Made by a program: the position numbers and the translations under genes. DNA of 64,000 nucleotides from Qipengyuania oceanensis (GTDB lineage: Bacteria; Pseudomonadota; Alphaproteobacteria; Sphingomonadales; Sphingomonadaceae): assembly GCF_009827535.1 (NCBI RefSeq), contig NZ_WTYN01000003.1:1-64000 (forward strand), written 5' to 3'. The notes below the pieces were generated by a model that worked only from the letters and a program-made list of their open reading frames with translations, had not been told where the DNA came from and did not search any database. Each line of letters opens with the position of its first letter. The first letter of the stretch is position 1. Below, piece by piece: positions 1,414 through 60,353 of the stretch.

Positions 1414-2627
1414 CAGCCGCCAGCCTCAAGCGCATTGTCGAAGAGGCGCTGGCCGAGGTTGGCGCATCGGTAAACTTCAGGCTCGTTCCAAAGGGCAAGG
1501 CGCGGACGACCACCTGGCTCGGGATCGAGCACGGCTTCGGCATCCGTCACTATCCGAGCGGGCGCAACGTCTACATTGTTCAGACCCGGATGGGTGGCAG
1601 GCTGCGCACTGTCACCATTGGCCCTGCCTCGGTACTCACGCGCCATCAGGCTCAGATGGTCGCGCGCCGCGTCATTGCCTACGCGCAGGTGGGGCGCGAT
1701 CCGGCCACCGATCGCAAGCGCATTCGATCCGCGCCGAGGTTCGACGATTTCCTTGAGGAATATTGGACCCGCTGGTCGCCGCGCTGGAAAGCTTCGACGC
1801 TCGACTCCCACACGCGCTACCGGCGGCTCTACCTCGACGACGCTTTCAAGGGCGTCTTCATCGACGAGGTCAACGAAGAGCATGTGACCAAGTGGTTTGC
1901 CGAGCTCAACAACCGGACGGGTCCGGGTGCAGCCAATCGGACCCTCGAAATCCTCAAGCACATGCTCAACAAGGCCGAGGCGTGGGGGTATCGGCTCGAG
2001 AATACAAACCCGTGCAGGTCGATACGACCGAACCGCAAACGCCAGTGCGAGCGGTTTTTGACGGTTGAGGAACTGGGGCGGGTCGGCATCGAGCTTGCAA
2101 AGCTACGGGAGAGCGACGACCTGACCGCCCGCTGCGAGGGCGCGGCAATCACCCTGCTGCTGCTGACCGGTTGTCGCAGGGGCGAGATACTCAATCTGCA
2201 TTGGGGCGACGTGAAGGGAAATCGGCTGAACCTTCGCGATAGCAAGACTGGGCCGCGCACCGTCTGGCTCGGCTCCGCCGCGCGAGAGGTCATTGCTGGC
2301 ATCCCGCGCCATCGGAAACTCCCCTGGCTATTCTGGAACTACCGATACCGGCGGCATATGCGGGACATTGCTTGGGCATGGAAAGGTATTCGCGAACGTG
2401 CCGGGCTTGGTCAGGTCCGCATCCATGACCTGCGACACACCTTCGCCAGCCATGCCGCCATGAACAAGGAAACGCTGCCGATGATCGGCAGGTTGCTTGG
2501 CCATGCAAACCACCAGTCCACGGCCCGTTACGCGCACCTGGATGATGACCACTTGCTTGATGCGGCGCAGCAGATTGGCGACGCAGTCGAACGAATGTGC
2601 GGGGGAAATCAGTCGCTTTGGAATTGA
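1410..2627 (+). CDS. Tyrosine recombinase (phage integrase family), second of a tandem pair
   Basis: A 405-residue paralogue of the preceding recombinase. It has the same domain order: N-terminal arm-binding-like part, SAM-like core-binding domain (about 110-200) and a catalytic domain with TGCRRGEILNLHW, HDLRHTFAS, LLGHA and TARYAHL. All catalytic residues of the family (R, K, H-x-x-R, H, Y) appear present. It starts by ATGA overlap with the upstream gene. Tandem overlapping integrases of this kind usually move a compact element together. The defence-like genes immediately downstream may be its cargo, which is an inference from position only. Confidence 0.9.
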   Translation: MTAASLKRIVEEALAEVGASVNFRLVPKGKARTTTWLGIEHGFGIRHYPSGRNVYIVQTRMGGRLRTVTIGPASVLTRHQAQMVARRVIAYAQVGRDPATDRKRIRSAPRFDDFLEEYWTRWSPRWKASTLDSHTRYRRLYLDDAFKGVFIDEVNEEHVTKWFAELNNRTGPGAANRTLEILKHMLNKAEAWGYRLENTNPCRSIRPNRKRQCERFLTVEELGRVGIELAKLRESDDLTARCEGAAITLLLLTGCRRGEILNLHWGDVKGNRLNLRDSKTGPRTVWLGSAAREVIAGIPRHRKLPWLFWNYRYRRHMRDIAWAWKGIRERAGLGQVRIHDLRHTFASHAAMNKETLPMIGRLLGHANHQSTARYAHLDDDHLLDAAQQIGDAVERMCGGNQSLWN

Positions 2628-8686: not shown

Positions 8687-10089
8687 GCCGCCTCCCTCAC
8701 CGCATCGGCGCGTGAAAAGATGGCGACCTGTGTCGGGTGACCAAAAGTTGGATCTTCGCTCCCAATGCCTTCGTACCGAACCTCGTAGCCGTGCGCCCTC
8801 GCAACCGATTCCGACCAATGGTGGAATTCGGAACGCGACCACTCGAAGCGGTGGTCCGAATGCCGCATGGCACCCGGCTCCATGCCTTCGAAAAGGACGT
8901 TGTATTCGCTATTGGGAGTGGTCACGATCACGTTTGCCGGTCGCGCGTGGCCGAACAATGCCGCTTCCAGTGCTGGCAACCTCTCTGCATCGATGTGCTC
9001 GATAACTTCCACAAGAGCAGCCACGTCGAAGCCCTTGAGACGATCGTCGCGGTACACGAGCGAGCCTTGCATCAGCTCAATCCGCTTGCGCTTGATGTCG
9101 GGCATGTGATCCAGCTTCAGCCGGTCACCTGCCTTCGCCAGAACGCGCGGCGCGACCTCGACGCCTACTATGCGGTCGAGACCCTTGATCGCGAGTAGGT
9201 GGCGCAACAACCGGCCTTCTCCGCAACCAAGATCGAGTACGCTCGACGCGCCAAGATTGCGGATCAAATCCGCCAGATAATCCATGCGCTGCGTGTTGAG
9301 CCGGATCGGCTTTTCGATCTTTTCTTCCTCTGCATCGCGCGACGCGTGTTCCTCCGGTTCTTCCGCCTCAACCCGCTCCTCTAGTTGCTCGGTTGCTGAC
9401 CGCATGAGTGACCGGAACCCGAGCAAGTACCGACGAACAATGAGTTCCTTCTCAGGATGCGCCTCAAGCCATTCGCCACCCTTTTGCAGCAGCTTTTTCA
9501 CCTCATCCTCGCCCACGTAATAGTGCTTGGAATTGTCCAGCACCGGAATGAGTACGAAGAGGTGCGTAAGCAGGTCCTGAACCCTTACCGTGCCTTTGAT
9601 GTCCAGCGACACGTATGGGCTAGCCCCCCACTCTGGATGCGCCGGATCGAGGGCAATTGCTTCTGCCTCGACTGAGTATCCCAACGGTTCGAACATGCGC
9701 GCCAGAAGGTCAGCCGACCCCCTGGCCGGGAGCGGCGTAAGAGAACATTCAAGCGGGATCGCGGTATCAGCAAGCTCCTGACGAAGCTTCGATCGACCGC
9801 CCATTGCGGTATTGAGAAGGCGGCCAAGCGCGACCGACAGCAGCGATGACGCGGCGTAAGGCCGGTCGTTGACGTACTGATCCTCAATGCTTGACTTGCC
9901 CCTGACCAGTGCGACCGGATCGACCTCCAGAGTAATCGCGGCGGTGCATCGATCCTCCCCGGCCTCGGGGTAGAACAGAGTCGCTGACCCGAACGGCAGG
10001 TCGACCGAATGGACGTTCTCCGGATGCTTCATCAGGAGGAAGCCGAGGTCGGTAGCAGGCCTGTGAGTGGTGGAGATTGTCAGAAGCAT
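8683..10089 (-). CDS. hen1: Hen1 3'-terminal RNA ribose 2'-O-methyltransferase
   Basis: The 468-residue bacterial Hen1 has two parts. The N-terminal half (about 1-240) is the region that activates ligation by Pnkp in characterised systems. The C-terminal methyltransferase (about 265-460) has the SAM motif LDLGCGEGRLL and the metal-site segment EVIEHID. Only RNA breaks marked by Hen1 resist a second cut at the same place. It is the first gene of a two-gene operon with pnkp and is translationally coupled to it. The start codon lies only 17 nt downstream of a strong minus-strand terminator-like hairpin (10107-10137), so expression may be controlled by attenuation. Confidence 0.93.
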   Translation of the reverse strand: MLLTISTTHRPATDLGFLLMKHPENVHSVDLPFGSATLFYPEAGEDRCTAAITLEVDPVALVRGKSSIEDQYVNDRPYAASSLLSVALGRLLNTAMGGRSKLRQELADTAIPLECSLTPLPARGSADLLARMFEPLGYSVEAEAIALDPAHPEWGASPYVSLDIKGTVRVQDLLTHLFVLIPVLDNSKHYYVGEDEVKKLLQKGGEWLEAHPEKELIVRRYLLGFRSLMRSATEQLEERVEAEEPEEHASRDAEEEKIEKPIRLNTQRMDYLADLIRNLGASSVLDLGCGEGRLLRHLLAIKGLDRIVGVEVAPRVLAKAGDRLKLDHMPDIKRKRIELMQGSLVYRDDRLKGFDVAALVEVIEHIDAERLPALEAALFGHARPANVIVTTPNSEYNVLFEGMEPGAMRHSDHRFEWSRSEFHHWSESVARAHGYEVRYEGIGSEDPTFGHPTQVAIFSRADAVREAA

Positions 10090-35753: not shown

Positions 35754-36374
35754 TCAACCGCGCTTGCGGGCTATCAGGTCGATCAACGCCGACTTGCCCG
35801 AATGGCCGATACCCTCCTCGATCTCGGTATCGTAGGCATCGAGCAATTCTATCTCCCACGTCGAGAAGGCGCGGCGCAAACCGTCCTCCGTATAGAGATT
35901 TTCGATATTGGGCGGACCGCCTGTCCCGTAGGCCAGCTGTTCTTCGCGATAGCCTTCGAGCAATAGCAGACCACCCGGCTTCAGCGAGCGATGGATACCA
36001 TCGAAGATGTCCTCACGCAGTTCGGGACCGGCAAACTGGATGAAGATGCCGACCACCGCATCCAAAGCTTCCGCCGGCCATTCCCATTCGGCCAGATTTG
36101 CCTGCCGATATTCGACGTCGACCGCTCGCCGCTCTGCGAAAGCTCGCGCCTTATCGAGTGCCCTTTCCGAAATGTCGGTAGCGACGACGCGATGGCCATG
36201 CTGGGCCAGGAATACGCTGTTTCGCCCCTCGCCATCGGCGACCGCCAGGACTTTCGATCCCGGGGTCAGGCAATGCACCTCGCGCGCGAGGAATGCGTTC
36301 GGTGCAGTCCCGAACAGATATTCGCCCGTCGCATAGCGCTCATCCCAGAAGGCCGCTTGATCCGGTTCAGTCAT
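35754..36374 (-). CDS. Class I SAM-dependent methyltransferase
   Basis: 206 residues with FWDERYATGEYLFG and a Rossmann fold, where motif I reads VLAVADGEGRNSVFLA, followed by ATDISERAL and LKPGGLLLLEGY. It resembles TehB and thiol-methyltransferase-like proteins often found beside sulfur genes. The start lies inside the end of the MBL-rhodanese gene (8-nt overlap), so the two are co-transcribed. A role in thiol or sulfide detoxification is plausible from context but not demonstrated. Confidence 0.82.
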   Translation of the reverse strand: MTEPDQAAFWDERYATGEYLFGTAPNAFLAREVHCLTPGSKVLAVADGEGRNSVFLAQHGHRVVATDISERALDKARAFAERRAVDVEYRQANLAEWEWPAEALDAVVGIFIQFAGPELREDIFDGIHRSLKPGGLLLLEGYREEQLAYGTGGPPNIENLYTEDGLRRAFSTWEIELLDAYDTEIEEGIGHSGKSALIDLIARKRG

Positions 36375-37719
36375 GGTCCGCCTTCCAAGCGCCCATCGAG
36401 CCTAGATAGACATCCAGCTTTTCGAAGCCGCGGCTCGCAAGCCAGCCGACAGCGACCGTGGCCCGCATTCCGCTGGCGCACATTAACGTGTAGTGCTGCG
36501 CCGGATCGAGGTCGTGATAACGGTCATTCAGTTCGCCTACGTAGATATGCTCGGAACCCTCGATCGCGTTTTGCGCGCGTTCGTCCGCATCCCTCACATC
36601 GAGCAGCGTCCAGCCATCTTTGCCGGCTTCCAGACGACGCTCGACTTCCTCGGTTCCAATCATCGGGATAGTCCGCATAGACTTGCCTTGCGCAGCTGCA
36701 GGCACGACACCGACATAACCGCCTTTGATATTGTCGAGTGCGATCCGCACGAGATGCGTCATGGCAGCTTCGAGCTGGTCTTCATCGGAAGCGATAAGAG
36801 CGACCCTCTCGCCCTCGCGAATGAACCATCCCGCGAATGCCGAGATCATGCCAACTGGTAGGTTCATGGAACCGGGAAGATGCCCTGACGCAAAGGCAAG
36901 GGGCTCGCGCACATCCACCAGGTGGTCGACGTCGGTGTCGCCCAACTCGGGCAGCGACAGCCGCTTGGGTCGCATCACACGAGGCGCAGCTTCGCCGCCT
37001 TCGAGATTGAGGCGCTCCATCAGCCGGAAATAGGGCGGCTGGTAATGGTTTTCCTCCACCTTGAAGTTGATGAAGGCATCGCGACTTTCGAATTGAAGGC
37101 GTGGATTGTTCGCGCGTTCGTGGCCGAGGGTCGAGAACTCGCGTTCCGCCATTCCCGATCCGCACACAGACCCCGCGCCATGTGCCGGATAGAGGATGAC
37201 CTGATCCCCGAGTGCCAATATCTTCTGCAGGGAATCGTATAGAAGGCCTGCGACCTCGCGCTTTCGTTCGGGATAAAAGTCCGTGCGGCCGACGTCGCCG
37301 ACGAACAGAGCGTCTCCCGTAAACACCCCGACTGGCCCATCGGGATAGCCAGTGTCGTGGAGAACGAAAGCAAGATGATCGTCCGTGTGCCCGGGCGTTT
37401 CGAGCACTCGGATTTTGAGCTGGCCTATCTCGAATTCGTCGCCCTCGCGCGCCGTTTCTGCATATTCGACTGTGCCTGCAGGATTTGGACCGTGCAGGAC
37501 GCGCGCGCCGGTCAATTCTCTCAGGATGGGAGCCCCGGACACTAGATCCTCGTTGCGATGGGTTTCGAAGATATGGGTGATCTCCAGACCCTCGGCGCGT
37601 GCCATTTCGACATAGCACTCGCAGTCGCGGCGCGGATCGATGACGGCCGCCTTGCCGCCCGAACCAATCAGGTAGGAAAGGTGGGACAGGCCGGGTGTCT
37701 TTATTTTTTCGAGCAGCAT
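36367..37719 (-). CDS. MBL-fold hydrolase fused to two rhodanese domains
   Basis: 450 residues. The metallo-beta-lactamase domain (about 1-240) has a variant first metal motif THRNED, then TPGHTDDHL and FTGDALFVGDVGRTD. Two rhodanese domains follow (about 260-345 and 360-445). The second has the active-site Cys loop MCASGMRA; the first has no Cys in that loop (ALIASDED) and is presumably structural. Such fusions are linked to persulfide oxidation (ETHE1/persulfide dioxygenase type) and sulfur transfer. It is the first gene of a two-gene unit with the methyltransferase. Confidence 0.88.
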   Translation of the reverse strand: MLLEKIKTPGLSHLSYLIGSGGKAAVIDPRRDCECYVEMARAEGLEITHIFETHRNEDLVSGAPILRELTGARVLHGPNPAGTVEYAETAREGDEFEIGQLKIRVLETPGHTDDHLAFVLHDTGYPDGPVGVFTGDALFVGDVGRTDFYPERKREVAGLLYDSLQKILALGDQVILYPAHGAGSVCGSGMAEREFSTLGHERANNPRLQFESRDAFINFKVEENHYQPPYFRLMERLNLEGGEAAPRVMRPKRLSLPELGDTDVDHLVDVREPLAFASGHLPGSMNLPVGMISAFAGWFIREGERVALIASDEDQLEAAMTHLVRIALDNIKGGYVGVVPAAAQGKSMRTIPMIGTEEVERRLEAGKDGWTLLDVRDADERAQNAIEGSEHIYVGELNDRYHDLDPAQHYTLMCASGMRATVAVGWLASRGFEKLDVYLGSMGAWKADHD

Positions 37720-47713: not shown

Positions 47714-47780
47714 GAATTTGGGCTCCCGCACTCCGTGTTATCTGCTTGAACGACGCATTTATCAGGGCCAATCGTAGGTG

Positions 47781-50700
47781 ATGGACAAAAGCGCCGAAAA
47801 GGCTGAACAATTCATCGCTGCCTGGCGCGATACCGGGGGGTCCGAGCTCGCCAATACGCAGAGTTTCGTCAACGGCCTTTGCGATCTGATCGGTGTTCCG
47901 GCGCCGGATGGCAGCAAGCCGGATGATGCGGAGAACGACTACGTTTTCGAACGCCGCGTCTTCGCCGATAACGGCGATGGCACGACGAATTTCGGCCGGA
48001 TCGACTGCTATCGCCGGGGGGCGTTCATCCTTGAAGCAAAGCAGGGGTCGGACGCGGACCGGCGCGCTGCGGAAGCAGGCGAAGAGGACCTCGATCTGTT
48101 CGGCCAGTCAGCGGCACGTCGCATGAAGCGGGGTACTGCCAAGCGCGGAACGGGCGGCTGGACAGCCGCGATGATCGCCGCAAAGGGCCAGGCGGAACGC
48201 TATGCCCGCTCTCTCCCGGTCGACCACAACTGGCCGCCATTCCTGATCGTCACTGATGTCGGTTACTGCCTCGATATCTGGGCGGACTTCTCAGGCACGG
48301 GAAGGGCCTACACGCAGTTTCCGGACCGCGCACGCTATCGCATCATGCTGGAAGATCTGCGGGATCCGGATGTGCGCGAGCGTTTGCGTTGCATCTGGAC
48401 CGATCCGCTTAGCCTCGACCCTGCCACCAAGGCGGCGCGCGTCACACGCCAGATAGCCGATCTATTAGCCAAGGTTGCGAAGCGGCTGGAGGCCCGCGAT
48501 CACAATCCCGACCGGGTGAGTGGCTTCCTGATGCGGCTGCTTTTCACGATGTTCGCCGAAGACAGCAAGCTGATCCCCGAGGAAAGCTTCACCGGCTTGC
48601 TGAAGGCGCAGAGAGCCCACCCACAGCATCTTGCCCCCCAGTTGTCGGCCCTTTGGCAGGCGATGGACAAGGGTGAATTCGCACCTGCTCTCGGTGTCCC
48701 CGTAAAACGATTCAATGGATACCTGTTCAAGGATCGAACCGCGCTCGACCTGGAGACGGACGAACTGGAGGTGCTGATTCAGGCGGCGGAACACAAGTGG
48801 ACGGAAGTGGAGCCTGCGATCTTCGGCACCTTGCTGGAACGTGCGTTGAACCCGAAGGAGCGGGCGAAGCTTGGGGCGCATTACACTCCGCGGGCCTATG
48901 TCGAACGCCTGATCGCTCCCACGATCATGGAACCTTTGCGGACAGATTGGGACGGTGTGCGCACCGCTGCTGCCAGTCTTATCGATGACGGCAAGACCGA
49001 CGCCGCCCATATGCTGGTGGAACAGTTCCACACGCGTTTGGCTGGCACTAAAGTGCTCGATCCGGCATGCGGAACGGGCAACTTTCTCTACGTTGCCATG
49101 GCGCGGATGAAGGAACTCGAAGGCGAGGTGCTCGACCTTCTGGAGGAGCTGTCGTCCAGCGATGCCGAGAAGCAATACGTAGCCGATCTTACCGGCCACA
49201 CGATCACACCCGAAAACTTCCTCGGCCTCGAAATCAACCCGCGTGCGGTTGAGATTGCGCAGCTCGTTCTGTGGATCGGTTACCTGCAATGGCACTTCCG
49301 CGTTAACGGGCAGGAGCGCATGCCGAACGAGCCTATCCTGACCGGCCTGCGCACAATCGAGCACCGCGATGCGTTGATCGACTACGACGAGAAAGTGCTG
49401 GAGCGCGATGAGGAGAACCGGTCCGTCTCGCGCTGGGATGGGGAGACGATGAAGCCCCATCCGGTGACCGGCAAGCCGGTGCCAGACGAGACGGCACGGG
49501 TCGAAAGCTGGCTCTATCCCAATCCCCGACCCGCGAAATGGCCCAAGGCTGATTTCATCGTCGGCAATCCGCCTTTTATCGGTGGCAAGGACGTTCGGGA
49601 TCGGCTGGGTGATGGATATTTCGATGCCTTGTTCAAGGTATCGGACGTTCCGGAAAGCGCCGATTTCGTGATGCATTGGTGGGATCGCGCGGCCAATGCG
49701 GTGCGGGCAGGGACTGCGCGGCGGTTCGGCTTCGTCACTACCAATTCGATCACACAGGTCTTCAGTCGTAGGGTCACGGCAAAGCATCTCGATGCCAAGA
49801 AAGGCGTCACAATCGCCTATGCTATTCCTAACCATCCTTGGGTGGACGAGAAGGACGGCGCGGCGGTTCGGATCGCCATGACTGTGGGCGTTCCATCGGG
49901 GACGCAAAGCAAAGGCTTGCTGCGCAAGGTCAGTGACGAGAGGGATGCGCCTGATACGATACTGTTCGCAGAGAAATCCGGGCGCATCGGATCCGATCTG
50001 CGCGTTGGTGCCGACGTTACCAAGGCGGCGCCGCTAAAGGCGAATGCCCGAATTGCGTCCCGTGGCGTACAGCTAATGGGCTCCGGCTTTATCGTCACGC
50101 CCGATCAAGCGCAGCGGCTCGATCCGCGTTCGCTGGCCATCGCCAGAGGAGAGGATGATGCGCCGCCGCGCATCCGTTCCGGTAGCGGCGACGAGCCGCA
50201 GGTCATCTTCGATTACCGCAACGGCAAGGATCTGACGGCTCGCCCGCGCGGCGTCATGGTGATCGACACCTACGGCTTAAGCGAAGCCGAATTGCGCGAC
50301 TGGCATCCGGCGGTGTGGCAGCATATCTTCGACGAGGTGAAACCGCATCGCGACACCAACAATCGCGCATCCTATCGCGATAATTGGTGGTTATTCGGTG
50401 AACAGCGCAGCGAAATTCGCAAGGCTCTGCGCGGGTGCGAACGCTATATTGCGACGGTCGAAACCGCCAAGCACCGGGTGTTCCAGTTTCTTCCGATTGC
50501 CACGGTGCCGGACAATATGATCGTGGCAATAGCTTCTTCGGATGCGTTCGATCTCGGAGTCTTGTCCAGTCGCTTTCATGTCCCGTGGGCGCTCGCGAGT
50601 GGGGCACGAATGGGTATGGGGGACGACCCGCGTTACAGCAAATCGCGATGCTTCGACCCATTCCCATTCCCGGCGGATGTCCCCGAATCGCTCGCTAATT

Positions 50701-51305
50701 CGATCCGCACCGAGGCCGAGGCACTCGATGCCGTTCGCAAGCGTGTGCTGGCCGACCATGACGATCTTACCTTGACCAAGCTATATAACGTGCTCGAGGC
50801 GATGCGATCCGATCTTCCGCTGACAGACACCGAGCGCGACATCCACGACCGTGGCCTCGTTACCCTCATTCGTCGCCATCACGACACAATCGATAGCGCT
50901 GTTGCCGAAGCCTATGGCTGGGCAGCGGACTTGCCCGAGGAGGAAATCCTCACCCGCCTCGTCGCGCTCAACCGCGAACGCGCCGCCGAGGAATCGCGCG
51001 GCCTTATCCGCTACCTGCGCCCAGATTTCCAGGATCCCGGCTATCGCGCGCCGATCAGCGAAACACTTGATCTGGGTGAGGCGCAGGTGCCGTTGCCGGA
51101 CAATGTTATCGCGTGGCCGAAGGACCTGCCGGGGCAGATCGGCGCGGTTCAGTCAATTCTTTCTGCGGCGAACGAACCCCTTGCGGCGCAGGACATTGCT
51201 CGCGCCTTCAAAGGCAAGCGGGCAGCCACTGTACGGCCTGTTCTGGATGCGCTAACAGGGGTCGGTCTGGCGCGCCGTACTGGCGAGGGCAAATACGCGG
51301 CATAG
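47781..51305 (+). CDS. MmeI-like (type IIL/IIG) restriction endonuclease-methyltransferase
   Basis: 1174 residues. The N-terminal nuclease has Asp75-x9-Glu85-Ala-Lys87, the same D-x9-E-x-K spacing as MmeI. A helical connector precedes the methyltransferase, with SAM motif LDPACGTGNFLYVA and catalytic NPPF in FIVGNPPFIGG (an adenine N6 type). A target-recognition region follows. The C-terminal 70 residues look winged-helix-like (AAQDIARAF...RRTGEGKY), and the chain is longer than MmeI (about 920). One polypeptide would both cut and protect DNA, a common cargo of mobile elements. A hairpin GCGGC-ATAGC-GCCGC with T-rich sequence follows at 51297. Confidence 0.88.
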   Translation: MDKSAEKAEQFIAAWRDTGGSELANTQSFVNGLCDLIGVPAPDGSKPDDAENDYVFERRVFADNGDGTTNFGRIDCYRRGAFILEAKQGSDADRRAAEAGEEDLDLFGQSAARRMKRGTAKRGTGGWTAAMIAAKGQAERYARSLPVDHNWPPFLIVTDVGYCLDIWADFSGTGRAYTQFPDRARYRIMLEDLRDPDVRERLRCIWTDPLSLDPATKAARVTRQIADLLAKVAKRLEARDHNPDRVSGFLMRLLFTMFAEDSKLIPEESFTGLLKAQRAHPQHLAPQLSALWQAMDKGEFAPALGVPVKRFNGYLFKDRTALDLETDELEVLIQAAEHKWTEVEPAIFGTLLERALNPKERAKLGAHYTPRAYVERLIAPTIMEPLRTDWDGVRTAAASLIDDGKTDAAHMLVEQFHTRLAGTKVLDPACGTGNFLYVAMARMKELEGEVLDLLEELSSSDAEKQYVADLTGHTITPENFLGLEINPRAVEIAQLVLWIGYLQWHFRVNGQERMPNEPILTGLRTIEHRDALIDYDEKVLERDEENRSVSRWDGETMKPHPVTGKPVPDETARVESWLYPNPRPAKWPKADFIVGNPPFIGGKDVRDRLGDGYFDALFKVSDVPESADFVMHWWDRAANAVRAGTARRFGFVTTNSITQVFSRRVTAKHLDAKKGVTIAYAIPNHPWVDEKDGAAVRIAMTVGVPSGTQSKGLLRKVSDERDAPDTILFAEKSGRIGSDLRVGADVTKAAPLKANARIASRGVQLMGSGFIVTPDQAQRLDPRSLAIARGEDDAPPRIRSGSGDEPQVIFDYRNGKDLTARPRGVMVIDTYGLSEAELRDWHPAVWQHIFDEVKPHRDTNNRASYRDNWWLFGEQRSEIRKALRGCERYIATVETAKHRVFQFLPIATVPDNMIVAIASSDAFDLGVLSSRFHVPWALASGARMGMGDDPRYSKSRCFDPFPFPADVPESLANSIRTEAEALDAVRKRVLADHDDLTLTKLYNVLEAMRSDLPLTDTERDIHDRGLVTLIRRHHDTIDSAVAEAYGWAADLPEEEILTRLVALNRERAAEESRGLIRYLRPDFQDPGYRAPISETLDLGEAQVPLPDNVIAWPKDLPGQIGAVQSILSAANEPLAAQDIARAFKGKRAATVRPVLDALTGVGLARRTGEGKYAA

Positions 51306-52443: not shown

Positions 52444-52476
52444 CCCGTGCCGTGTCGCTGCGCTTCGTGGCACGGG
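52444..52476 (+). repeat. Leader hairpin before the MobC-like gene
   Basis: CCCGTGCC and GGCACGGG form a perfect 8-bp stem around a 17-nt loop. The start codon at 52497 is 20 nt further on, after the ribosome binding site AAGGAAAGG. It belongs to a series of hairpins at comparable positions in this region. Confidence 0.6.
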
Positions 52477-52496
52477 TCTGAAGGAAAGGTTTCACG

Positions 52497-53024
52497 ATGA
52501 AGCCTGAATATTCGGAAGAGCCTTCCGCAAAGGCAAGGGCGGTCCTCTCCCCAGGTCCGAGCGAAGGACCATATCGTCATGAAATCAGGATTGCGCTTAC
52601 CAGCGCGCAAAAATCCTATCTCGAACAGGCGGCGGGATGCGACGCGATCTCCGCATTTGTCCGCGACAAGTTATTTTATGCCTCCCCCAATATGGTGACC
52701 GCCATCGGTGCTATCGGCGCGCTCTATCAGGCTGCAGGACAGGTCATCGAAGCGAGCGATGAGCTACGAATGCAGGCCGCAAAGGCTGGACGCACGATCG
52801 ACAGCATCGGACAAATTGCGATCAGTAAGAACGAGGTCTGGGAAGGGATGCCGAAGGATATCGCGACCGCGTTGCGACCGGTCGGCGAACAAGCCGAAAG
52901 GTTGCATGATCTCGGCACAAGATTGCACGGGCTCGCGAATAATCTTGCGGCCGAGGATTTCCTCGGCGCGCCGAACCGAAAACTGAACCACGAAATTCAA
53001 CCTCGACCGAGACCGAAGCCGTGA
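52497..53024 (+). CDS. MobC-like mobilization accessory protein
   Basis: 175 residues. After a disordered start, EIRIALTSAQKSYLEQAAG and AISAFVRDKLF resemble the ribbon-helix-helix part of MobC proteins. The rest is helical and ends in a proline-rich basic tail (EIQPRPRPKP). It is directly upstream of, and overlapping, the MOBP relaxase, the usual place of the accessory protein that opens the transfer origin. A strong ribosome binding site AAGGAAAGG is present. Confidence 0.7.
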   Translation: MKPEYSEEPSAKARAVLSPGPSEGPYRHEIRIALTSAQKSYLEQAAGCDAISAFVRDKLFYASPNMVTAIGAIGALYQAAGQVIEASDELRMQAAKAGRTIDSIGQIAISKNEVWEGMPKDIATALRPVGEQAERLHDLGTRLHGLANNLAAEDFLGAPNRKLNHEIQPRPRPKP

Positions 53025-55786
53025 TCGCAAAGCTTATCGGGATCAAGTCTCAGCTCATGAGCGGTGCGAGCCTTGCCGCCGGCGCGCAAAAGGTCCGCGA
53101 TTACGGCTGGACATTGGCGAAATACGTCGCCGCGTTGAAGCTCGACGAGGAAGATCTCGCGCGCCTCCACGAACTGGGTGAGATGGGCAAATATCCCGTC
53201 AACGACAAAGGCGATGAGAACCGCATCCGTGATCGCGGGACGATGCATCTAGAGGGCGAGGACTACGACCAACGTGCGCTCGCATTTGCGTACCTCACCG
53301 CCCAGTATGGACCGCGGGCCCTCAAGCACATCGTTGTGTCCTATCGCGAAGGCCCCGTATCTCTCGAAATGGCCGAACGTCATCGCGATACTTTCCTACG
53401 TGTCTTGGGCGCTGAAAACTGTGCAGGCTTTTACGGCCTTCATGGAGATACCGCACGTCCGCATTTTCACCTTGCTATCAACGCATATGATCTGACGCAG
53501 AGAAACCTGAGTAAATGGGGGCAGGGCTTCGAAATCGAGGCCCTTCATATCGCGTCGGCTCTGTGCGAACGCGACGACATGCTGCCGTGTGAACCAAACA
53601 GGCGGTACGTGGCCGATGAAACAGGGGTCTACCACACCTTGTCCGGTATCAAAGTCGCCGACGAGAACGGGCGGATTCTAAATGCCTCGCGAATGCTTCG
53701 CGTCCCTGGCCTACAGCACAAGATCGAAGATGAATTTCGCACGCCGGATGGACTCGAAGAGGGGAAACCTGTTCCGGCGGAAACCTCAGTCAAAATTCTT
53801 GCGAAAGCGGCGCGGGAAAGCGCTCGAGATTGGGAGGGGTATCACCGTGGTCTCGCCCGCGTAGGCCTCCGTTACGAACCTTACGAAGCCGCGGGGAAGA
53901 TTGTCGGTGGCTATTTCGTTCCGGTCGATGCCGATATTTCTAGTAAGGTGCGGGTGAAGGCGAGCGCGATCGGAGCCGGCTACAAGAAGCTCGTCAATCG
54001 TTTCAATCAGACCGAATATCAGGAGCCGCCCAAGGATATCTGGTTCAGGCCATTTCAAACGCTGGGTTATGTCGGTGAGCCTCCTGCAGACGCCGACGCC
54101 CGCGATCGCGAACGAGAGCTACAGAGAGCCGAAGAAAAACGGCTTGCGACGCTGACTGCGGAAATTGCTGCACGACATGGTCGCGATGGATTGTCAGCCC
54201 GGGCTACTCAAAAAGCGCGCGCCGCCAAAAAGCGTAAACAGCTTGGTCTATCGCTGGACCAAGATGACGATCCTCTAAATGATCAAAGCGCCAAGTATCG
54301 CAAATACGAACGCGACTTCATCGAGGGGATCAAGCGCGCCATCAAGCAGGAACGAGGCGCGACGCGTGGACGCAAAAGAACGAAACCGATTGATGGCTTG
54401 CTATGGGGAGCCAGCAGCAGCGTAGTCGATGATCAACCAGCATGGCTGGACAAGTATAATCCTATGCGCCTCAACGGCGTCCGGGAATTTTATGACGGCG
54501 AGGTTCTGGCGTTCACGGAAACCCGCAATTTCGTAGCGGTTCATTCCAGCTCAAAACAGCACAGGATCGATGCGCTGCTGCTCGCCCAGAAAAAGTTCGG
54601 CACCATTCGGATCGAGGGCTCCCGGAGGGAACGGAAACGACTGATAAAACTGGCCGTAGAACTGGATATTCCGCTTGATCGATCACACCAAGGCGAAGCC
54701 GAGAGAATTCAACGTAGGACGGCATCAGAGCAATCAAGAGGGCGGATTAGCGAGCCAAGTCTTGAGACGCAGCCCGAGCCTCGTCAAGAAGTCAACCGCA
54801 GTCAGAGCGACTCTGGTATTGACGAAAACCCGGACAAAGCAGCGCACGCGCTGCGCAAAAACAGACAACGAAAATTAAGCGCTCTGCGCTACCTCGTGCA
54901 GCGCGACAGTCGAGAGCGGCGGCATCGGGTCGAGAGCCACTTTCCTGCCTACGAAATGTCTTGGCTGCAACAAGACAACGAGAGTGCCGCAGATGTCCGC
55001 GGCCCTAACCCGCCCCCGAATGAATCCATTCGCGCTCGCAGGAAGCTTGAAAGCATTGATCCCAACAGGCTGATGCTGGCTTCCTCGCAGGAATGCTACA
55101 AAGGATACCGTTTTCTTGACGATAAGGTGCTAACGACGGTCTTCACCGCGCCGAAACGCTGGCTGATGCTGCCCGAAATCCAGAAGCATCTGAAAGCGCT
55201 GGCTGCGATCCAAATGCATGAGCGCCGCTGGATTGCTTCGGCCGTGCAATCTGGTCGCGTCACGATCGAAAAGGGAGAATTGTTTGCGGTCAGAAAGACC
55301 GACGGCTGGGCAACCGAATTCTATCGTCGACAACGAGACGATCCCCGCTTCCAAGCTACAATACTTCTCGCGAAGGTGGCGCCGAACCGGTTCGCATTGA
55401 ACCTCGATGTTCACCCCGGACTTGCGGCTTGGCGGCAAGCCCACCGGAGCCAAGACGCGGATATAGCGAGCTACATTGCGTATGAACTCAACCGAACGGC
55501 AATCAAGCATGGCGCGGCGAGCGTGCCGATTGGTGCTGAAGCAAGAGACGGCAGGACTTTAACGTCGCTTCGTAATGATGCCGCAGGCGAGTTCCGCAAG
55601 CTGATCGCCTCACCGCTAAGCCGAGATGAGCGCGAAGCGTTGTCCAAAACGCGTTCGGTCACTGCGACCGTTTTTGCGCAATTCCCATGGGCCTCGATCC
55701 GTTCGCCGAAGCGGATGAAGCGGTATGCGCGAAAACAAAGGTTCCGGCACATCGGTACGGCGGTGCACGATAGGAACGGTCGATAA
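53021..55786 (+). CDS. MOBP-family relaxase with LPD7-like segment
   Basis: The 921-residue protein has the motif III signature His141-x-Asp143-x4-His148-x-His150 (HGDTARPHFHLAI), an upstream HIVVSYREG, and a candidate nicking Tyr among Tyr28 and Tyr35 (RDYGWTLAKY). A segment near residues 505-550 (AVHSSSKQHRIDALLLAQ, then IRIEGSRRER) resembles the LPD7 domain seen in large mobilization proteins. The C-terminal part is basic and unassigned. It starts with GTG overlapping the MobC-like stop. This relaxase family differs from the MOBF enzyme at 11119, so two mobile elements are implied. Confidence 0.85.
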   Translation: MIAKLIGIKSQLMSGASLAAGAQKVRDYGWTLAKYVAALKLDEEDLARLHELGEMGKYPVNDKGDENRIRDRGTMHLEGEDYDQRALAFAYLTAQYGPRALKHIVVSYREGPVSLEMAERHRDTFLRVLGAENCAGFYGLHGDTARPHFHLAINAYDLTQRNLSKWGQGFEIEALHIASALCERDDMLPCEPNRRYVADETGVYHTLSGIKVADENGRILNASRMLRVPGLQHKIEDEFRTPDGLEEGKPVPAETSVKILAKAARESARDWEGYHRGLARVGLRYEPYEAAGKIVGGYFVPVDADISSKVRVKASAIGAGYKKLVNRFNQTEYQEPPKDIWFRPFQTLGYVGEPPADADARDRERELQRAEEKRLATLTAEIAARHGRDGLSARATQKARAAKKRKQLGLSLDQDDDPLNDQSAKYRKYERDFIEGIKRAIKQERGATRGRKRTKPIDGLLWGASSSVVDDQPAWLDKYNPMRLNGVREFYDGEVLAFTETRNFVAVHSSSKQHRIDALLLAQKKFGTIRIEGSRRERKRLIKLAVELDIPLDRSHQGEAERIQRRTASEQSRGRISEPSLETQPEPRQEVNRSQSDSGIDENPDKAAHALRKNRQRKLSALRYLVQRDSRERRHRVESHFPAYEMSWLQQDNESAADVRGPNPPPNESIRARRKLESIDPNRLMLASSQECYKGYRFLDDKVLTTVFTAPKRWLMLPEIQKHLKALAAIQMHERRWIASAVQSGRVTIEKGELFAVRKTDGWATEFYRRQRDDPRFQATILLAKVAPNRFALNLDVHPGLAAWRQAHRSQDADIASYIAYELNRTAIKHGAASVPIGAEARDGRTLTSLRNDAAGEFRKLIASPLSRDEREALSKTRSVTATVFAQFPWASIRSPKRMKRYARKQRFRHIGTAVHDRNGR

Positions 55787-55874
55787 ATCCGTTTCCAACT
55801 ATCTTGAACTCAAAAGCCTTAGAAGCCGGAACGCAGATCCGTCTAATAAGGTGGAATATTTGACTGAAGAGAGA

Positions 55875-55896
55875 CCTGCCGGTTGAAGCCGGCAGG
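55875..55896 (+). repeat. Leader hairpin before the DEDDh exonuclease gene (outer)
   Basis: CCTGCCGG-TTGAAG-CCGGCAGG is a perfect 8-bp stem. It is followed by AAGGAAAAGG and an in-frame ATG at 55912, which may be an alternative start of the exonuclease gene. Confidence 0.6.
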
Positions 55897-55937
55897 GCGA
55901 AAGGAAAAGGGATGCGGAAAGCGCGTCCCGCGCCTCG

Positions 55938-55956
55938 CCGGTTTCGACGAAACCGG
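55938..55956 (+). repeat. Leader hairpin before the DEDDh exonuclease gene (inner)
   Basis: CCGGTTTC-GAC-GAAACCGG is a perfect 8-bp stem with a 3-nt loop. It is followed by AGAATAGGA and the ATG at 55966, only 9 nt after the stem. Confidence 0.65.
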
Positions 55957-55965
55957 AGAATAGGA

Positions 55966-56859
55966 ATGATCAACACCGACCACCTGTCACCAGACGCCGA
56001 AGCGTTGGCGGATGAGCTTCAACGCAGCGACGATTATCGCGTGCTGCGGCGCGTCCCAAAACCCTATCCATCGATGCCCCACATGGGACCTGTGCCCGAT
56101 GGTCGTTGCGTCGCCATTGTCGATACCGAAACGTCGGGTCTTTCAGCAGAGCACGACGTCATCATTGAGCTCGCAATCATGCTCTGCTTCGTCGACGATG
56201 GTAGCGAGCTCATAGGCCACTTCGGACCGTTCAGCTGGCTGCAGGATCCAGGCCGTGAACTCGATCCCAGGATCAGCCTCATCACTGGCCTCGGCGCACA
56301 GCATCTGATGGGCCAGAAGATCAACGATACTTTCGCGCGCGGTTTGCTCGATCGCGCTGACCTGATAGTCGCTCACAATTCGAGCTTCGACTCGAAATTC
56401 ATAGAGCGCCGTTATCCCGATCTGGCGGGCAAAGCCTGGGCCTGCTCGTGCAGCGAAATCGATTGGCTGAAGTTGGGCTTCGACGGCCGCTCGCAATCCG
56501 CGCTTCTCGCGCATGCCGGATGGTTTTCGGACGCGCATCGCGCGGCCGCGGATGTCTGGGCGCTGTTCTGGCTGCTACGCCACCGCCAACGCGATCCCGG
56601 TGGAGGTCCGGTCCGCACCCACCTAGCGCGCCTCATCGACGCTGCCGACACGCCCTCGGCCATCGTGCAGGCCGAACGCGCGCCGTACTCAAAGAAAGAG
56701 ATGCTGAAAGCGCGCGGCTATCGATGGAATCCCGACGGCCCGTTCTGGCAGATCGAACTGCCGCCGCAGAAGGTCGAGCACGAACAAGCATGGGGCTATC
56801 GCAACGGTCTTCCAACGATGACCACGCGCACGGTGACGGCGCGCGAGCGGCATCGCTGA
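55966..56859 (+). CDS. DEDDh 3'-5' exonuclease (DnaQ-like)
   Basis: 297 residues with the exonuclease motifs IVDTETSG (about 53-58), HNSSFDSKF and SDAHRAAADVWA, the DEDDh set used by DNA polymerase III epsilon and RNase T. The last 80 residues (KARGYRWNPDGPFWQIEL) form an added domain resembling the small module often attached to plasmid-borne exonucleases. The start at 55966 follows a hairpin and AGGA; an in-frame ATG at 55912 would add 18 basic residues encoded by the hairpin itself. It is probably an element-encoded DNA-repair or replication function. Confidence 0.85.
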   Translation: MINTDHLSPDAEALADELQRSDDYRVLRRVPKPYPSMPHMGPVPDGRCVAIVDTETSGLSAEHDVIIELAIMLCFVDDGSELIGHFGPFSWLQDPGRELDPRISLITGLGAQHLMGQKINDTFARGLLDRADLIVAHNSSFDSKFIERRYPDLAGKAWACSCSEIDWLKLGFDGRSQSALLAHAGWFSDAHRAAADVWALFWLLRHRQRDPGGGPVRTHLARLIDAADTPSAIVQAERAPYSKKEMLKARGYRWNPDGPFWQIELPPQKVEHEQAWGYRNGLPTMTTRTVTARERHR

Positions 56860-56898
56860 ACGCGGCCGTTTCTTCATTCACAATTCGACGCAAATGCG

Positions 56899-56924
56899 CC
56901 GGTGCACTTCTCGGTTGGCACCGG
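56899..56924 (+). repeat. Leader hairpin before the PolB-type exonuclease gene
   Basis: CCGGTGC and GCACCGG form a 7-bp stem around a 12-nt loop. AAGGAAAT and the ATG at 56946 follow 21 nt after the stem. Confidence 0.55.
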
Positions 56925-56945
56925 TGCGCAACAAGGAAATACATC

Positions 56946-57812
56946 ATGACCAATATCGTACCGCTGGGCGGCGAACTCGAGCGCCTGTCTCGCAAGCTCG
57001 AGCACGAAGCGCAGATGTTCCTAGCGCGCAAGCGTGACGGCCGTTTTGATACAGCGCGCCGCTGGTTGATCTTCGATCTGGAATTTGTTTTCGATCGCTC
57101 GCGTCACAAAGGTTACACGAAGTCCGAAGGAAAGGACGCCGAGCTGTCGATCCGTTGGCCGTTCCATCAGGTCGCAGCGGTCAGCTGGATGACGCTGGAG
57201 TTCGTCGCCGATGGAGCTGTTCCGGCGATCGCAGGACCGTTCGTCCTGACTGCCGAGAATGCGGACGAGCGTGACATGGTCACGGCGTTGTTCGACGCGC
57301 TCGAGCAGGATCCCGGTGCGGTCGCGACTACGTGGGGAGGGGAGGCTCGCGACCTTGCCGTCCTGCGCCGTGCAGCGGCGACCCATGGGCTGGTGTTGCC
57401 CCACCAGCTGATCGACGGATCTCCGCACGCGAGGGAGCGGCTCGATCTGTGCCGGGCTAGCTGCGTTCAGGCATCCAGTGTGCATCTACCCGAGCTGGCG
57501 GCCGCGGTCGGTGTTCCATCCAAGCCGACACCATCGGAAGACATCGGCAAGCATTGCGAAGCGGGCAATTGGGCAACGGTGCGTGACCAGGTGCCCGCTG
57601 ATGTCCTCACCACGGCCGTTCTGACAGTCCGGCACCTGGCCGCGCACCGCCAGATCGAATGCCATCAGCCCGATACGCTGGTGGCTATCGCGGACGCCGC
57701 AGGCGCGGCCCTGCCGAACAGCGAATTCATCCGTCGGTCCTTTGCACCCTGGGCAGGAGGTAAGAAGGCCGAAAGCGGCCTACGCGGTACTGTCTACCGA
57801 GCCGCCGCGTAA
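56946..57812 (+). CDS. Predicted 3'-5' exonuclease, PolB-exonuclease-like
   Basis: 288 residues. WLIFDLEFVFD gives a D-x-E exonuclease I motif, WGGEARDLAVLRRAA fits motif II, and the C-terminal third (DVLTTAVLTVRHLA) fits motif III. This is the layout of predicted exonucleases related to the PolB proofreading domain. It is the second DEDD-type nuclease in a row and is preceded by its own hairpin and AAGGA. The long frame that overlaps it on the left (from 56448) is spurious. Confidence 0.7.
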   Translation: MTNIVPLGGELERLSRKLEHEAQMFLARKRDGRFDTARRWLIFDLEFVFDRSRHKGYTKSEGKDAELSIRWPFHQVAAVSWMTLEFVADGAVPAIAGPFVLTAENADERDMVTALFDALEQDPGAVATTWGGEARDLAVLRRAAATHGLVLPHQLIDGSPHARERLDLCRASCVQASSVHLPELAAAVGVPSKPTPSEDIGKHCEAGNWATVRDQVPADVLTTAVLTVRHLAAHRQIECHQPDTLVAIADAAGAALPNSEFIRRSFAPWAGGKKAESGLRGTVYRAAA

Positions 57813-57901
57813 CCGATTGAGTACTCGTCAGAACCATGACGGGAAAAAGCGATCTGAAAGAGAGGAGGAAAAGATGACTTAGGAAATGCCAACAGGAGGC
57901 A

Positions 57902-57931
57902 GGCACGGGCCTCGAGACATAGCACCGTGCC
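57902..57931 (+). repeat. Hairpin 1 in the leader of the gene at 58019
   Basis: GGCACGG and CCGTGCC form a 7-bp stem around a 16-nt loop, 90 nt after the previous gene. The arms recall those of the hairpin at 52444 in reverse order. Confidence 0.5.
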
Positions 57932-57937
57932 GCGAAG

Positions 57938-57956
57938 GGTCTGCCGCAAGCAGACC
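57938..57956 (+). repeat. Hairpin 2 in the leader of the gene at 58019
   Basis: GGTCTGC-CGCAA-GCAGACC is a perfect 7-bp stem with a 5-nt loop, directly after hairpin 1. Confidence 0.55.
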
Positions 57957-57964
57957 GTACCCGA

Positions 57965-58003
57965 GCCGCTCGTCCACCGAGGATGCGCGGCATTTTTTAT
58001 GCC
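57965..58003 (+). terminator. Terminator-like or attenuator structure in the leader of the gene at 58019
   Basis: GCCGC (57965-57969) can pair with GCGGC (57987-57991), followed by ATTTTTTAT. The same T run is also the loop of GGCAT-TTTTT-ATGCC (57989-58003). The two structures exclude each other. The ribosome binding site AAGGAAA and the ATG follow within 16 nt, so this could switch between termination and read-through. Confidence 0.45.
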
Positions 58004-58018
58004 TGAAGGAAACACAAA

Positions 58019-58696
58019 ATGCCCAAGAAGAAAACCACCGCCAGCCGCGCTGTCGCGACCGCCAAGAACACCAACCTCGCTCGCCTGCCCGAGCGCATCG
58101 CCATCGGCGATCATGAGGTGAGGCCCGAACAACTCTACATTATCAAGAAGCGCCAGCCGCGAGGGTCCGGGCCGTGGAACGATGAAAAGTTCGACAAGGT
58201 TGCCTGGAACGACGCTGAGACAGGTCTCGACTGCATTCTGCTGCGCCAGGCATCGGGTGTCTGGGGCGGGTTCGTCGCGGTTCCTCCTGATCATCCGCTT
58301 TACGGCTACCGCGAGGATGCCGTCCCGGCGGCAATCGGCCTCACGCCGCATGGGGGAATCGATTACGCCGAAGCCTGCTCGCGGTACGAGGACGAGGCCG
58401 TGCGCGTGTGCCACGTCCATAGCAGGGCCAATGCCCCACAGGCTGAGGATCAGACAGAAGACAATGCGTGGTGGTTCGGTTTTGCTGCGGACAAGCGCGG
58501 CGACTTGGTTCCGTCGGGGGGCAAGCCGATTCTCGCGCGCGAGGAGGGCGAGATCTACCGCAGCATCGACTACATGTACTCGGAAACCGTGCAGCTCGCC
58601 CGGCAGCTGAAAGCGATCGATGACAGCAGCATCGCCAAAGCCGACCCCGTGCTGGCACCGCCGCCGCCAAGGCTCGGCAAGCCGGGAGGGCGCTGA
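58019..58696 (+). CDS. Conserved-looking protein of unknown function
   Basis: 225 residues. A Lys-rich start (MPKKKTTASRAVATAKNT) is followed by a compact domain with several Trp (GPWNDEKFDKVAWND, GVWGGFVAV, WWFGFAADKRGD), a helical end and a proline-rich tail. AAGGAAA precedes the ATG. It has the typical size and look of element-borne accessory proteins. No motif gives a function. The next gene starts 2 nt after its stop, so they form a pair. Confidence 0.65.
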   Translation: MPKKKTTASRAVATAKNTNLARLPERIAIGDHEVRPEQLYIIKKRQPRGSGPWNDEKFDKVAWNDAETGLDCILLRQASGVWGGFVAVPPDHPLYGYREDAVPAAIGLTPHGGIDYAEACSRYEDEAVRVCHVHSRANAPQAEDQTEDNAWWFGFAADKRGDLVPSGGKPILAREEGEIYRSIDYMYSETVQLARQLKAIDDSSIAKADPVLAPPPPRLGKPGGR

Positions 58697-58698
58697 TC

Positions 58699-59496
58699 AT
58701 GGATCAGCACGAGATTCCTTATGAGAAGCGCCGCAATCCGAACCTGCCGTTCGGCTATTGGTGCATCGCGGATCCGGACGGCTATCCGCACCTTATCGAC
58801 GAGCATGGGCGGCGGTGGTCGTGTCTGCGCGAATACATCTGGTGCGGTCGCCTTGGCATGGCGCGGGGCTCCAACTGGGAGTTCACCGCCACGACTGAGT
58901 TCCTGCTCGCCGTCCTCGCTGCGATCGATAGACGCGTCGTACACATCGAGGAGCGGATCAACGATCTGTTCGGCGGTGCCTGGGATGGCGAACGCCATTA
59001 CGCGTCGTGGCTCGAAGGTCACAAGCTCGCCGAAGGCTTGGCCGGCGATCTCACCCCGGAGGGAAGAGCCATCCTCGTTGCGCTGGCCAGCACGCGCGGT
59101 GCCGAGGCAGCGCCCATTCCAATTGGCCTTCCCACGGTCGCACCGTGGCGTGGGTTCGATGGCGGCGATACCCAGGAAGAGCGCAAACGCGCGTTCAAGG
59201 TTAACGCGGCCTTCGCCGAAAATCTGCCGGGCCGGTTCATCCGGGAACAGATCGGAAGGGAATGGGGGATCAAGCTCATCGGTGCGCCCGAAGGGCCGAA
59301 TATCCCGCTCGGCCGCGTGCTCTGGACCATGACTTTTCCCGACCAGTACGCGCGCGATCGCCTGTTCGCCTGGCTGGTTCACCGGATCGACCGGTGGGAA
59401 GCGTGGACGGCGCTTGCGAGCAAGCACGGAGCACAGGCGTTCACCGAGCATATCCTGCGGTTGCGGTTCGCCGACGAGACAATCGACCTGGGCTGA
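58699..59496 (+). CDS. Protein of unknown function paired with the preceding gene
   Basis: 265 residues, soluble, with WCIADPDGYPHLIDEHGRRW and a Trp-rich C-terminal part (HRIDRWEAWTALASKHG). No signal peptide or catalytic motif is recognised. It starts 2 nt after the previous stop and is co-transcribed with it. A strong hairpin lies after its end, before the next gene. Confidence 0.65.
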   Translation: MDQHEIPYEKRRNPNLPFGYWCIADPDGYPHLIDEHGRRWSCLREYIWCGRLGMARGSNWEFTATTEFLLAVLAAIDRRVVHIEERINDLFGGAWDGERHYASWLEGHKLAEGLAGDLTPEGRAILVALASTRGAEAAPIPIGLPTVAPWRGFDGGDTQEERKRAFKVNAAFAENLPGRFIREQIGREWGIKLIGAPEGPNIPLGRVLWTMTFPDQYARDRLFAWLVHRIDRWEAWTALASKHGAQAFTEHILRLRFADETIDLG

Positions 59497-59526
59497 ACGC
59501 GAGCATTCAATCTTAATCCAATCAGT

Positions 59527-59558
59527 AGCGGGCGGTTCTCGAAAAGGAACCGCCCGCT
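59527..59558 (+). repeat. Leader hairpin before the gene at 59582
   Basis: AGCGGGCGGTTC and GAACCGCCCGCT form a perfect 12-bp stem with an 8-nt loop, the longest of the series. CCAGGA and the ATG at 59582 follow 23 nt later. It could also end transcription of the upstream pair, but no T run follows. Confidence 0.65.
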
Positions 59559-59581
59559 GCGCATTTCCAGGATGTTCTCAG

Positions 59582-60163
59582 ATGCGATATCGAAATTATT
59601 CGCGCTTCCCCGAACGCATGGTCGCGCTTTCCATTTTGCCCCCGCCGCTGGCTCTCGACCGGCCAGCACCATTCGGGTTCGGGGCATTCATCGTCACCCG
59701 TCGCTGGCGTGATGAGGCGGAGGTTGCCTCATATGCGCACGGCTACGGCGCCGGCTACGATCCTGAGCGTATGCGCAGCCACATCGAAACGCTCTTCACG
59801 CCGGAGACAATGGCATTGATCCACATTGCCGCACCATCGTTTTCACGGCGTCATAAACTGGCACCATTGCCTTATTCTTCCTCCTACTCGAGGTACATTC
59901 CCCGATGCGGGCTCAGACGGAACATCCACGCGGTGATCCCGCACGATCAACTGGTTCACGCAGCACGGGTCGGCGGAATTTCGATCCATGGACCGAACCC
60001 GACAGCAATTCAGCGTATCGGTCGCCTCCATACCGAGGCGCAAGCCACGTGGTTGTTCTGGGTGATCGCAGCCTGCCCCCCACGCATCCGCAGAAGCGTT
60101 TTGGCAGGCTATGTGGCTTGGACAAAGCTGCAAAAAGCGAAAGGGTGTGGTTCGACTGTTTGA
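59582..60163 (+). CDS. Protein of unknown function
   Basis: 193 residues, starting at the ATG that follows the 12-bp hairpin and CCAGGA. The sequence (MRYRNYSRFPERMVALSIL..., YAHGYGAGYDPERM, a basic centre with CGLRRNIHAVIP and a hydrophobic stretch ATWLFWVIAACPP) has no motif I recognise. A terminator follows within 10 nt, so it ends a unit. Confidence 0.6.
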   Translation: MRYRNYSRFPERMVALSILPPPLALDRPAPFGFGAFIVTRRWRDEAEVASYAHGYGAGYDPERMRSHIETLFTPETMALIHIAAPSFSRRHKLAPLPYSSSYSRYIPRCGLRRNIHAVIPHDQLVHAARVGGISIHGPNPTAIQRIGRLHTEAQATWLFWVIAACPPRIRRSVLAGYVAWTKLQKAKGCGSTV

Positions 60164-60167
60164 CGGA

Positions 60168-60197
60168 AAGAGGCGCGGTGATCCGCGCCCCTTTTTT
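60168..60197 (+). terminator. Intrinsic terminator after the gene at 60163
   Basis: AGGCGCGG-TGAT-CCGCGCCCC forms a 7-bp GC stem with a 4-nt loop and is followed by TTTTTTAT. Confidence 0.8.
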
Positions 60198-60353
60198 ATA
60201 TCCACACTCGTCCCAAACTTTACTCTGAAATCGCTCCCGTGTCGCCTCCCTCCCCGAAGGGGAATCCTGCACCGGGGGCGTAGTACCGACGGTTCTGTAA
60301 TAACCCTATGCAATAAAAGGATTTAGTAAGGAATTAGAGGCATCAGAATCCCG

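Follow-up and report, generated by a model that had tools for sequence, protein, structure and literature searches.

The window analysed here, the initial 64 kb of a contig of 154 kb in a genome of 2.87 Mb, carries several genes of a mobile region that are preceded by hairpins, and the question is whether these hairpins represent one common means of post-transcriptional control. The nearest named relatives of the locus belong to the Erythrobacteraceae (Qipengyuania, Erythrobacter and Pseudopontixanthobacter). The genes concerned are as follows.

52497, forward strand: gene upstream of the relaxase gene 53021
53021: MobP/TraI-like relaxase gene
55966–56859, forward strand: DnaQ-type 3'-5' exonuclease (RNase_T PF00929; NF006615 above cut-off)
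56946–57812, forward strand: predicted 3'-5' exonuclease, PolB-type (PF10108)
58019–58696, forward strand: uncharacterised protein with a weak match to PHROG 2164 (function unknown)
58699–59496, forward strand: uncharacterised protein, beginning 2 nt after 58019, without a hairpin of its own
59582–60163, forward strand: uncharacterised protein, final gene ahead of a terminator at 60172–60197

The two exonuclease genes, 58019, 58699 and 59582 are read as a small operon carried by a mobile element in sphingomonads resembling Erythrobacteraceae, as part of a best explanation that, taken whole, we consider plausible but slightly short of probable. The same genes are chromosomal in another genome (G221) with a relaxase identity of 98%, a value that appears compatible with recent transfer. 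Homology to a T4SS coupling protein was detected in the genome itself on another contig only, and viral contigs and plasmids contained only remote relatives of the 58019 family. The AlphaFold model of the 58019 product had a mean pLDDT of 53, too weak for use.

Hairpins ahead of start codons

The original prediction placed stems before the start codons at 52497, 55966, 56946, 58019 and 59582, each followed by an AGGA-type ribosome binding site, and all five stems and binding sites were found. The stem before 55966 is described in the next section. At 58019 the 5-bp stem GGCAT/ATGCC is present, but the main hairpin before this gene is a terminator at 57965–57991. The other three are given here; none of the window hairpins before 52497, 55966, 56946 and 59582 has a U-tract.

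52444–52476, forward strand: hairpin before 52497, 8 bp, 20 nt ahead of the start
56896–56929, forward strand: intercistronic hairpin before 56946, 7-bp core at 56899–56924, 21 nt ahead of the start
59527–59558, forward strand: hairpin GCGGGCGG/CCGCCCGC before 59582, 12 bp, 23 nt ahead of the start

A similar frequency of hairpins in ordinary chromosomal leaders had been named as evidence that would count against a special role, and the frequency there was lower. Perfect stems of at least 7 bp that end 9–23 nt before the start occurred in four of the five element leaders, compared with about 5% of 285 chromosomal leaders (from 400 kb of the same genome, with our own gene calls) and 1% of shuffles; when stems of at least 5 bp were counted, the values were five of five and 26%. 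Relatives provide a fairer test of enrichment because the five window sites had been hand-picked. With the 3' arm 9–30 nt ahead of the start, stems of at least 7 bp were present in 7 of 11 leaders for g56946, 6 of 16 for g58019 and 5 of 6 for g59582, against 5.6% in the control. Relatives kept hairpins in place with differing, compensating sequences and the pairs do covary; a lack of covariation, the other outcome named as counting against the idea, was therefore also not observed. This agrees with the proposal that structure and position, rather than sequence, are common to the leaders. The original prediction had tied the lack of a hairpin to genes that directly follow another; 53021 and 58699 indeed have no stem near the start, but 60354 is an exception, with none despite a gap of 190 nt.

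The plain intercistronic hairpins at 56946 and 59582 were found in nearly all relatives and are terminator-like in some. Sequence turnover of the 56946 hairpin is complete among relatives, three of which (L102, L104 and L112) have a U-tract, while the stem GCGGGCGG/CCGCCCGC at 59582 is nearly invariant, so that covariation is little informative there. The 52497 comparison comprised one near-identical homologous leader (L100). Shared DNA-binding operators were rejected as an explanation, as the stems differ in sequence between leaders and form no common repeat. A shared 13-bp sequence of the SAS/ESAS type was absent from the leaders, which have in common only an SD-like AAGGA.

The original interpretation was upheld in one part, post-transcriptional control: enrichment, conserved position and covariation with coding-strand G-U pairs all point to the RNA level. 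A single common device, such as the suggested RNA-binding protein shared by all leaders, was not supported because a sequence-conserved core occurs only at 55966, a mini-ORF with a terminator at 58019, and plain hairpins at 56946 and 59582. These leaders are at least three different devices.

A conserved structured RNA before the 55966 exonuclease gene

The leader of 55966 contains a multi-helix element and two hairpins that could compete with its first helix.

55885–55945, forward strand: conserved structured RNA of about 60 nt, matched by covariance model R1 at 66.3 bits, with covariation; P1 pairs 55885–55893 with 55937–55945, the AAGGAAAAG core lies at 55902–55910 and P3 at 55909–55929
55875–55896, forward strand: local hairpin CCTGCCGG/CCGGCAGG 5' of the structured RNA, offering the 5' strand of P1 another partner
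55938–55956, forward strand: alternative hairpin CCGGTTTC/GAAACCGG, 8 bp, 9 nt before the start, touching the GGAG Shine-Dalgarno (SD) and mutually exclusive with P1

The hairpin at 55875–55896, also of 8 bp and ahead of 55912, is additional to the five stems of the original prediction.

Homologs of 55966 down to about 40% protein identity kept the RNA, with a AAGGAAAAG-like core, a variable P3 and a P1 of 9 bp (7–8 bp in a distant clade). The covariance model, built from nine sequences, recovered more members, one of them (L175) ahead of another exonuclease-like gene. It replaced a loose GGAAAA fold filter whose 173 matches were mostly in coding regions; three matches to the model outside the element (L176, L177 and L178) resemble coding sequence and were not counted as members. 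Among 19 sequences (probably including two false ones), 82% of cells in the structure were paired, compared with 73% after shuffling and 33–46% when slid, and two-sided changes were seen in 13 pairs, a number reached in none of 500 shuffles. Covariation was strong in P1 and included G-U pairs on the coding strand. The G-U pairs in P1, together with model scores of up to 73 bits on the coding strand versus at most 27 bits on the reverse strand, identify the element as a coding-strand RNA. A further start codon at 55912 is not conserved among relatives, and for this reason the RNA reading was preferred.

A search of the whole window and its relatives against Rfam 15 returned no relevant match and no family over the gathering threshold for the 55966 leader; the DnaX element scored 14.6 bits, where the cut-off is 35. 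The 55966 element is presented as a candidate for a new RNA family carried by mobile elements. The 3' strand of P1 can instead pair within the SD-touching hairpin. The two folds have equal energy in the window, and many relatives clearly favour P1. The leader is a possible translational switch in which P1 or the SD-touching hairpin would form alternately.

A minimal open reading frame and a terminator before 58019

A gap of 206 nt forms the leader of 58019. A strong SD and ATG ACT TAG come first, two hairpins and an intrinsic terminator follow, and the gene's own SD is last.

57862–57873, forward strand: strong Shine-Dalgarno GAGGAGGAAAAG of the minimal ORF
57874–57882, forward strand: minimal ORF ATG ACT TAG (M-T-stop)
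57902–57931, forward strand: hairpin A, GGCACGG/CCGTGCC, recognisable in close relatives
57937–57962, forward strand: hairpin B, GGTCTGC/GCAGACC
57965–57998, forward strand: intrinsic terminator GCCGCTCGTCC..GCGGC-ATTTTTT, hairpin at 57965–57991, U-tract end 20 nt before the start

The most unusual of the devices is this combination: a start-then-stop mini-gene that encodes one to four amino acids, and a terminator just ahead of 58019. To our knowledge, only isolated examples of minimal ORFs have been described in the leaders of bacterial genes. The mini-ORF was found in relatives as M*, MT*, MN*, MS*, MIQL* and MKPP*; its second codon, stop codon and length vary and its minimal size is constant. 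The M* version (ATGTAG) occurs in L104, L149, L150, L202, L203 and L206, and an SD followed by ATG-NNN-stop in the window and in L101–L103, L143, L144, L146, L148, L201, L204, L205 and L212. By comparison, three or fewer further codons follow only 24 of the 463 ATGs with a strong SD in 1.0 Mb of the same genome. Regulatory codons are absent from the M*, MT*, MN* and MS* versions, and MKPP* ends in Pro-Pro-stop, conserved at the amino-acid level. Within the MKPP* clade two of the 15 ORF columns are variable, both at third codon positions, while the flanks vary in 8 of 9 and 8 of 11 columns; this pattern is the one expected for a translated sequence. The distance from the mini-ORF stop to the start of the 58019-family gene was 93–142 nt, counting only correctly located starts.

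The U-tract of the terminator ends mostly 20–23 nt before the start (15 nt in one clade); values of 0 or none for this distance arise from wrongly picked starts, for example TTTTTTATG in L101–L103. The terminator hairpin was stable in all 21 sequences, with z-scores from –2.7 to –5.9, and individual positions of its inner stem are occupied by GC, AT, CG and TA pairs in different sequences. On the chromosome a terminator-like hairpin stands as near to the start in 2 of 285 genes. Hairpins A and B were not recognisable in the MKPP* clade, and minimum free energy folds of the 58019-family leaders gave no anti-terminator common to all clades.

Mini-ORF and terminator occurred together. Among 53 distinct 58019-family leaders, 26 had both (28 by eye), 25 had neither, two had the mini-ORF only and none had the terminator only; in the two exceptions terminators are visible by eye, just under the filter. 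Because the elements are related to one another, these 28 represent about ten lineages. When the full layout was scanned for in 4.28 million strand-bases, a total that includes overlapping loci and so overstates the true amount, every match preceded the 58019 family. The unit is absent after g56946 in two loci without g58019 (L112 and L113). The mini-ORF is retained for its architecture over many species, beside a terminator and in six peptide versions.

Proposed mechanism and alternatives

Our leading explanation, which we hold tentatively and put a little below an even chance, is that cis-acting RNA elements lie at the intercistronic boundaries of the operon, each with its own device, and that the 58019 leader would be gated by translation. 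The anatomy, conservation and covariation of the leaders and the co-occurrence of mini-ORF and terminator are observed; start sites, ribosome loading, termination and any signal are inferred, as follows. A ribosome would load at the strong SD and start the minimal ORF with almost nothing to elongate. About 95–140 nt downstream, the terminator would end part of the transcripts just ahead of the 58019 RBS, and 58019 and its followers would be made only from read-through RNA. Occupation of the mini-ORF (by initiation, drop-off or slow termination, with Pro-Pro-stop in one clade) would decide the fate of the leader, either through control of termination and read-through or through protection from RNA decay. 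The hairpins at 56946 and 59582 could be leaky terminators or barriers that affect RNA stability.

The 58019 leader may accordingly be described as a translation-gated attenuator or a ribosome-protected leader, and we give about equal weight to read-through control and RNA protection. At a distance of 95–140 nt the terminator is out of reach of a ribosome that occupies the mini-ORF, and direct coupling of the trp type is only a possibility, as no anti-terminator pairing was identified that all clades conserve. A more specific and rather unlikely version is an attenuator whose translated element has been cut to a start and a stop. In place of a leader peptide, it would sense initiation or termination itself (supply of initiator or release factor, recycling, or EF-P in the MKPP* clade). 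If true, such a start-stop attenuator would make the expression of genes on the mobile element depend on the condition of the host ribosomes.

The alternative that survives best, although we judge it somewhat unlikely, is that a ribosome at the SD and mini-ORF, together with the hairpins, shields the cistrons from RNase E and 3' exonucleases (or Rho), with the terminator setting stoichiometry only and nothing being sensed. Published minigenes affect RNA stability or translation of nearby genes: the two-codon minigene ATGactTAA of axe-txe acts positively in cis, possibly via RNA stability, and in LEE4 a ribosome bound at the strong SD of the mini-ORF keeps RNase E from acting (PMC8708949). The variation of the encoded residues by clade likewise suggests that ribosome occupancy, not the peptide, could matter. 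This account leaves unexplained the strict tie between mini-ORF and terminator and the synonymous-only changes in the MKPP* clade.

Plain insulation is improbable. On this view the upstream transcript would stop at the terminators, and transcription of 58019, 56946 and 59582 would begin at separate promoters that a consensus scan overlooks. The original prediction had included insulation from read-through, which is possible for the terminator-like hairpins, whose shape at 58019 is canonical. The end of the U-tract, mostly 20–23 nt before the start, leaves scant room for a promoter ahead of the RBS, however, and the mini-ORF would have no explanation. A sigma-70 scan, which performs poorly for these organisms, found no consensus promoter in these gaps. 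Least probable is an independent 3' UTR-derived sRNA, titrating ribosomes or RNA for example, that lies before 58019 by chance: the stretch of about 130 nt does end in an intrinsic terminator and, among close relatives, also contains hairpins A and B, but the same gene family is always downstream, the unit is not seen after g56946 in the two cases where g58019 is missing, and the MKPP* clade is without recognisable hairpins A and B.

Comparison with known systems

The 55966 leader resembles cis-regulatory leaders of the Rfam type in having a covarying multi-helix RNA and a conserved unpaired core beside the SD, and differs from them in matching no Rfam 15 family. The SAS/ESAS elements of cluster K mycobacteriophages (PMC3203893) are likewise dyads just 5' of the starts of a subset of mobile-element genes. 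They have a common sequence and RNA pairing was not supported according to the authors, whereas in the present leaders sequences differ and pairing covaries.

The M* leaders resemble the AUG-stop uORF of plant NIP5;1 (PMC5972666), where a stop directly after AUG serves as a regulatory element. In contrast to this eukaryotic uORF, the 58019 unit is bacterial, SD-driven and coupled to a terminator, and it has no known link to boron. The attenuators trpL, tnaC and mgtCBR share with 58019 the order of small ORF, intrinsic terminator and structural gene. Unlike them, the 58019 mini-ORF has 0–3 sense codons beyond its ATG and lacks a run of regulatory codons, and its leader shows no anti-terminator common to all clades.

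A close likeness is to the two-codon minigenes of axe-txe and LEE1 ler and to the LEE4 mini-ORF, in which an SD is combined with a minimal ORF and the identity of the residues is unimportant; ATGactTAA of axe-txe is almost identical to ATGACTTAG of the window (PMC8708949). In axe-txe, 15 nt separate the end of the minigene from its gene (PMC8708949), whereas the mini-ORF of 58019 is 93–142 nt away with a terminator between. A further difference from axe-txe and LEE is that the 58019 unit is kept over a gene family in M*, MT*, MN*, MS*, MIQL* and MKPP* forms, which provide a natural series for the effects of start-stop ORFs on transcription and RNA decay.

Non-coding blocks upstream of mobile element genes

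The gap that precedes the start codon at 60354 contains a non-coding block (about 60250-60320), CCTGCACCGGGGGCGTAGTACCGACGGTTCT, which was nearly identical in L100, L102, L107, and L108 among the loci of relatives compared with the window and was retained in part in L111, where the protein identity is 50%. This block could be an origin, an operator or an attachment site. A second conserved non-coding block, CTGGGGCGGCGTCGCRACGCCTTGG .. GGACCC .. GCTGACAGC, was detected 5' of the homolog of the DnaQ-type exonuclease gene (start at 55966) in L106, L073-L076, and L079. The window lacks this second block, and the relaxase gene stands upstream of 55966 there.

Wider occurrence of the exonuclease leader RNA

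The structured RNA of the 55966 leader was also detected in L175 (genome and contig G268:C11, ~1501-1559, minus strand) upstream of a different exonuclease-like gene, where the GGAGG Shine-Dalgarno sequence falls within the possible 3' hairpin. In more distant exonuclease homologs (L085, L092, L094, L096, L098, and L099), the hairpins are simpler and have GGAAAAG as their apical loop; GTGACCGGAAGGGCGGTGAGGAAAAGCCTCGCTGCCGCTCGGTC is one example. These hairpins and the 55966-type RNA perhaps belong to one wider RNA family.

Other genes in the window

47778-51305, plus strand: MmeI-like combined restriction-modification enzyme, adjoining the mobile region
36367-37719, minus strand: metallo-beta-lactamase/rhodanese-type gene
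6143-10089, minus strand: gene pair

The start codon of the metallo-beta-lactamase/rhodanese-type gene is preceded at 23 nt by a terminator-like hairpin. A strong terminator-like hairpin also lies 22 nt upstream of the minus-strand gene that starts at 10089, and the gap upstream of this gene spans 795 nt. The 6143-10089 pair resembles a Pnkp-Hen1 RNA repair cassette.
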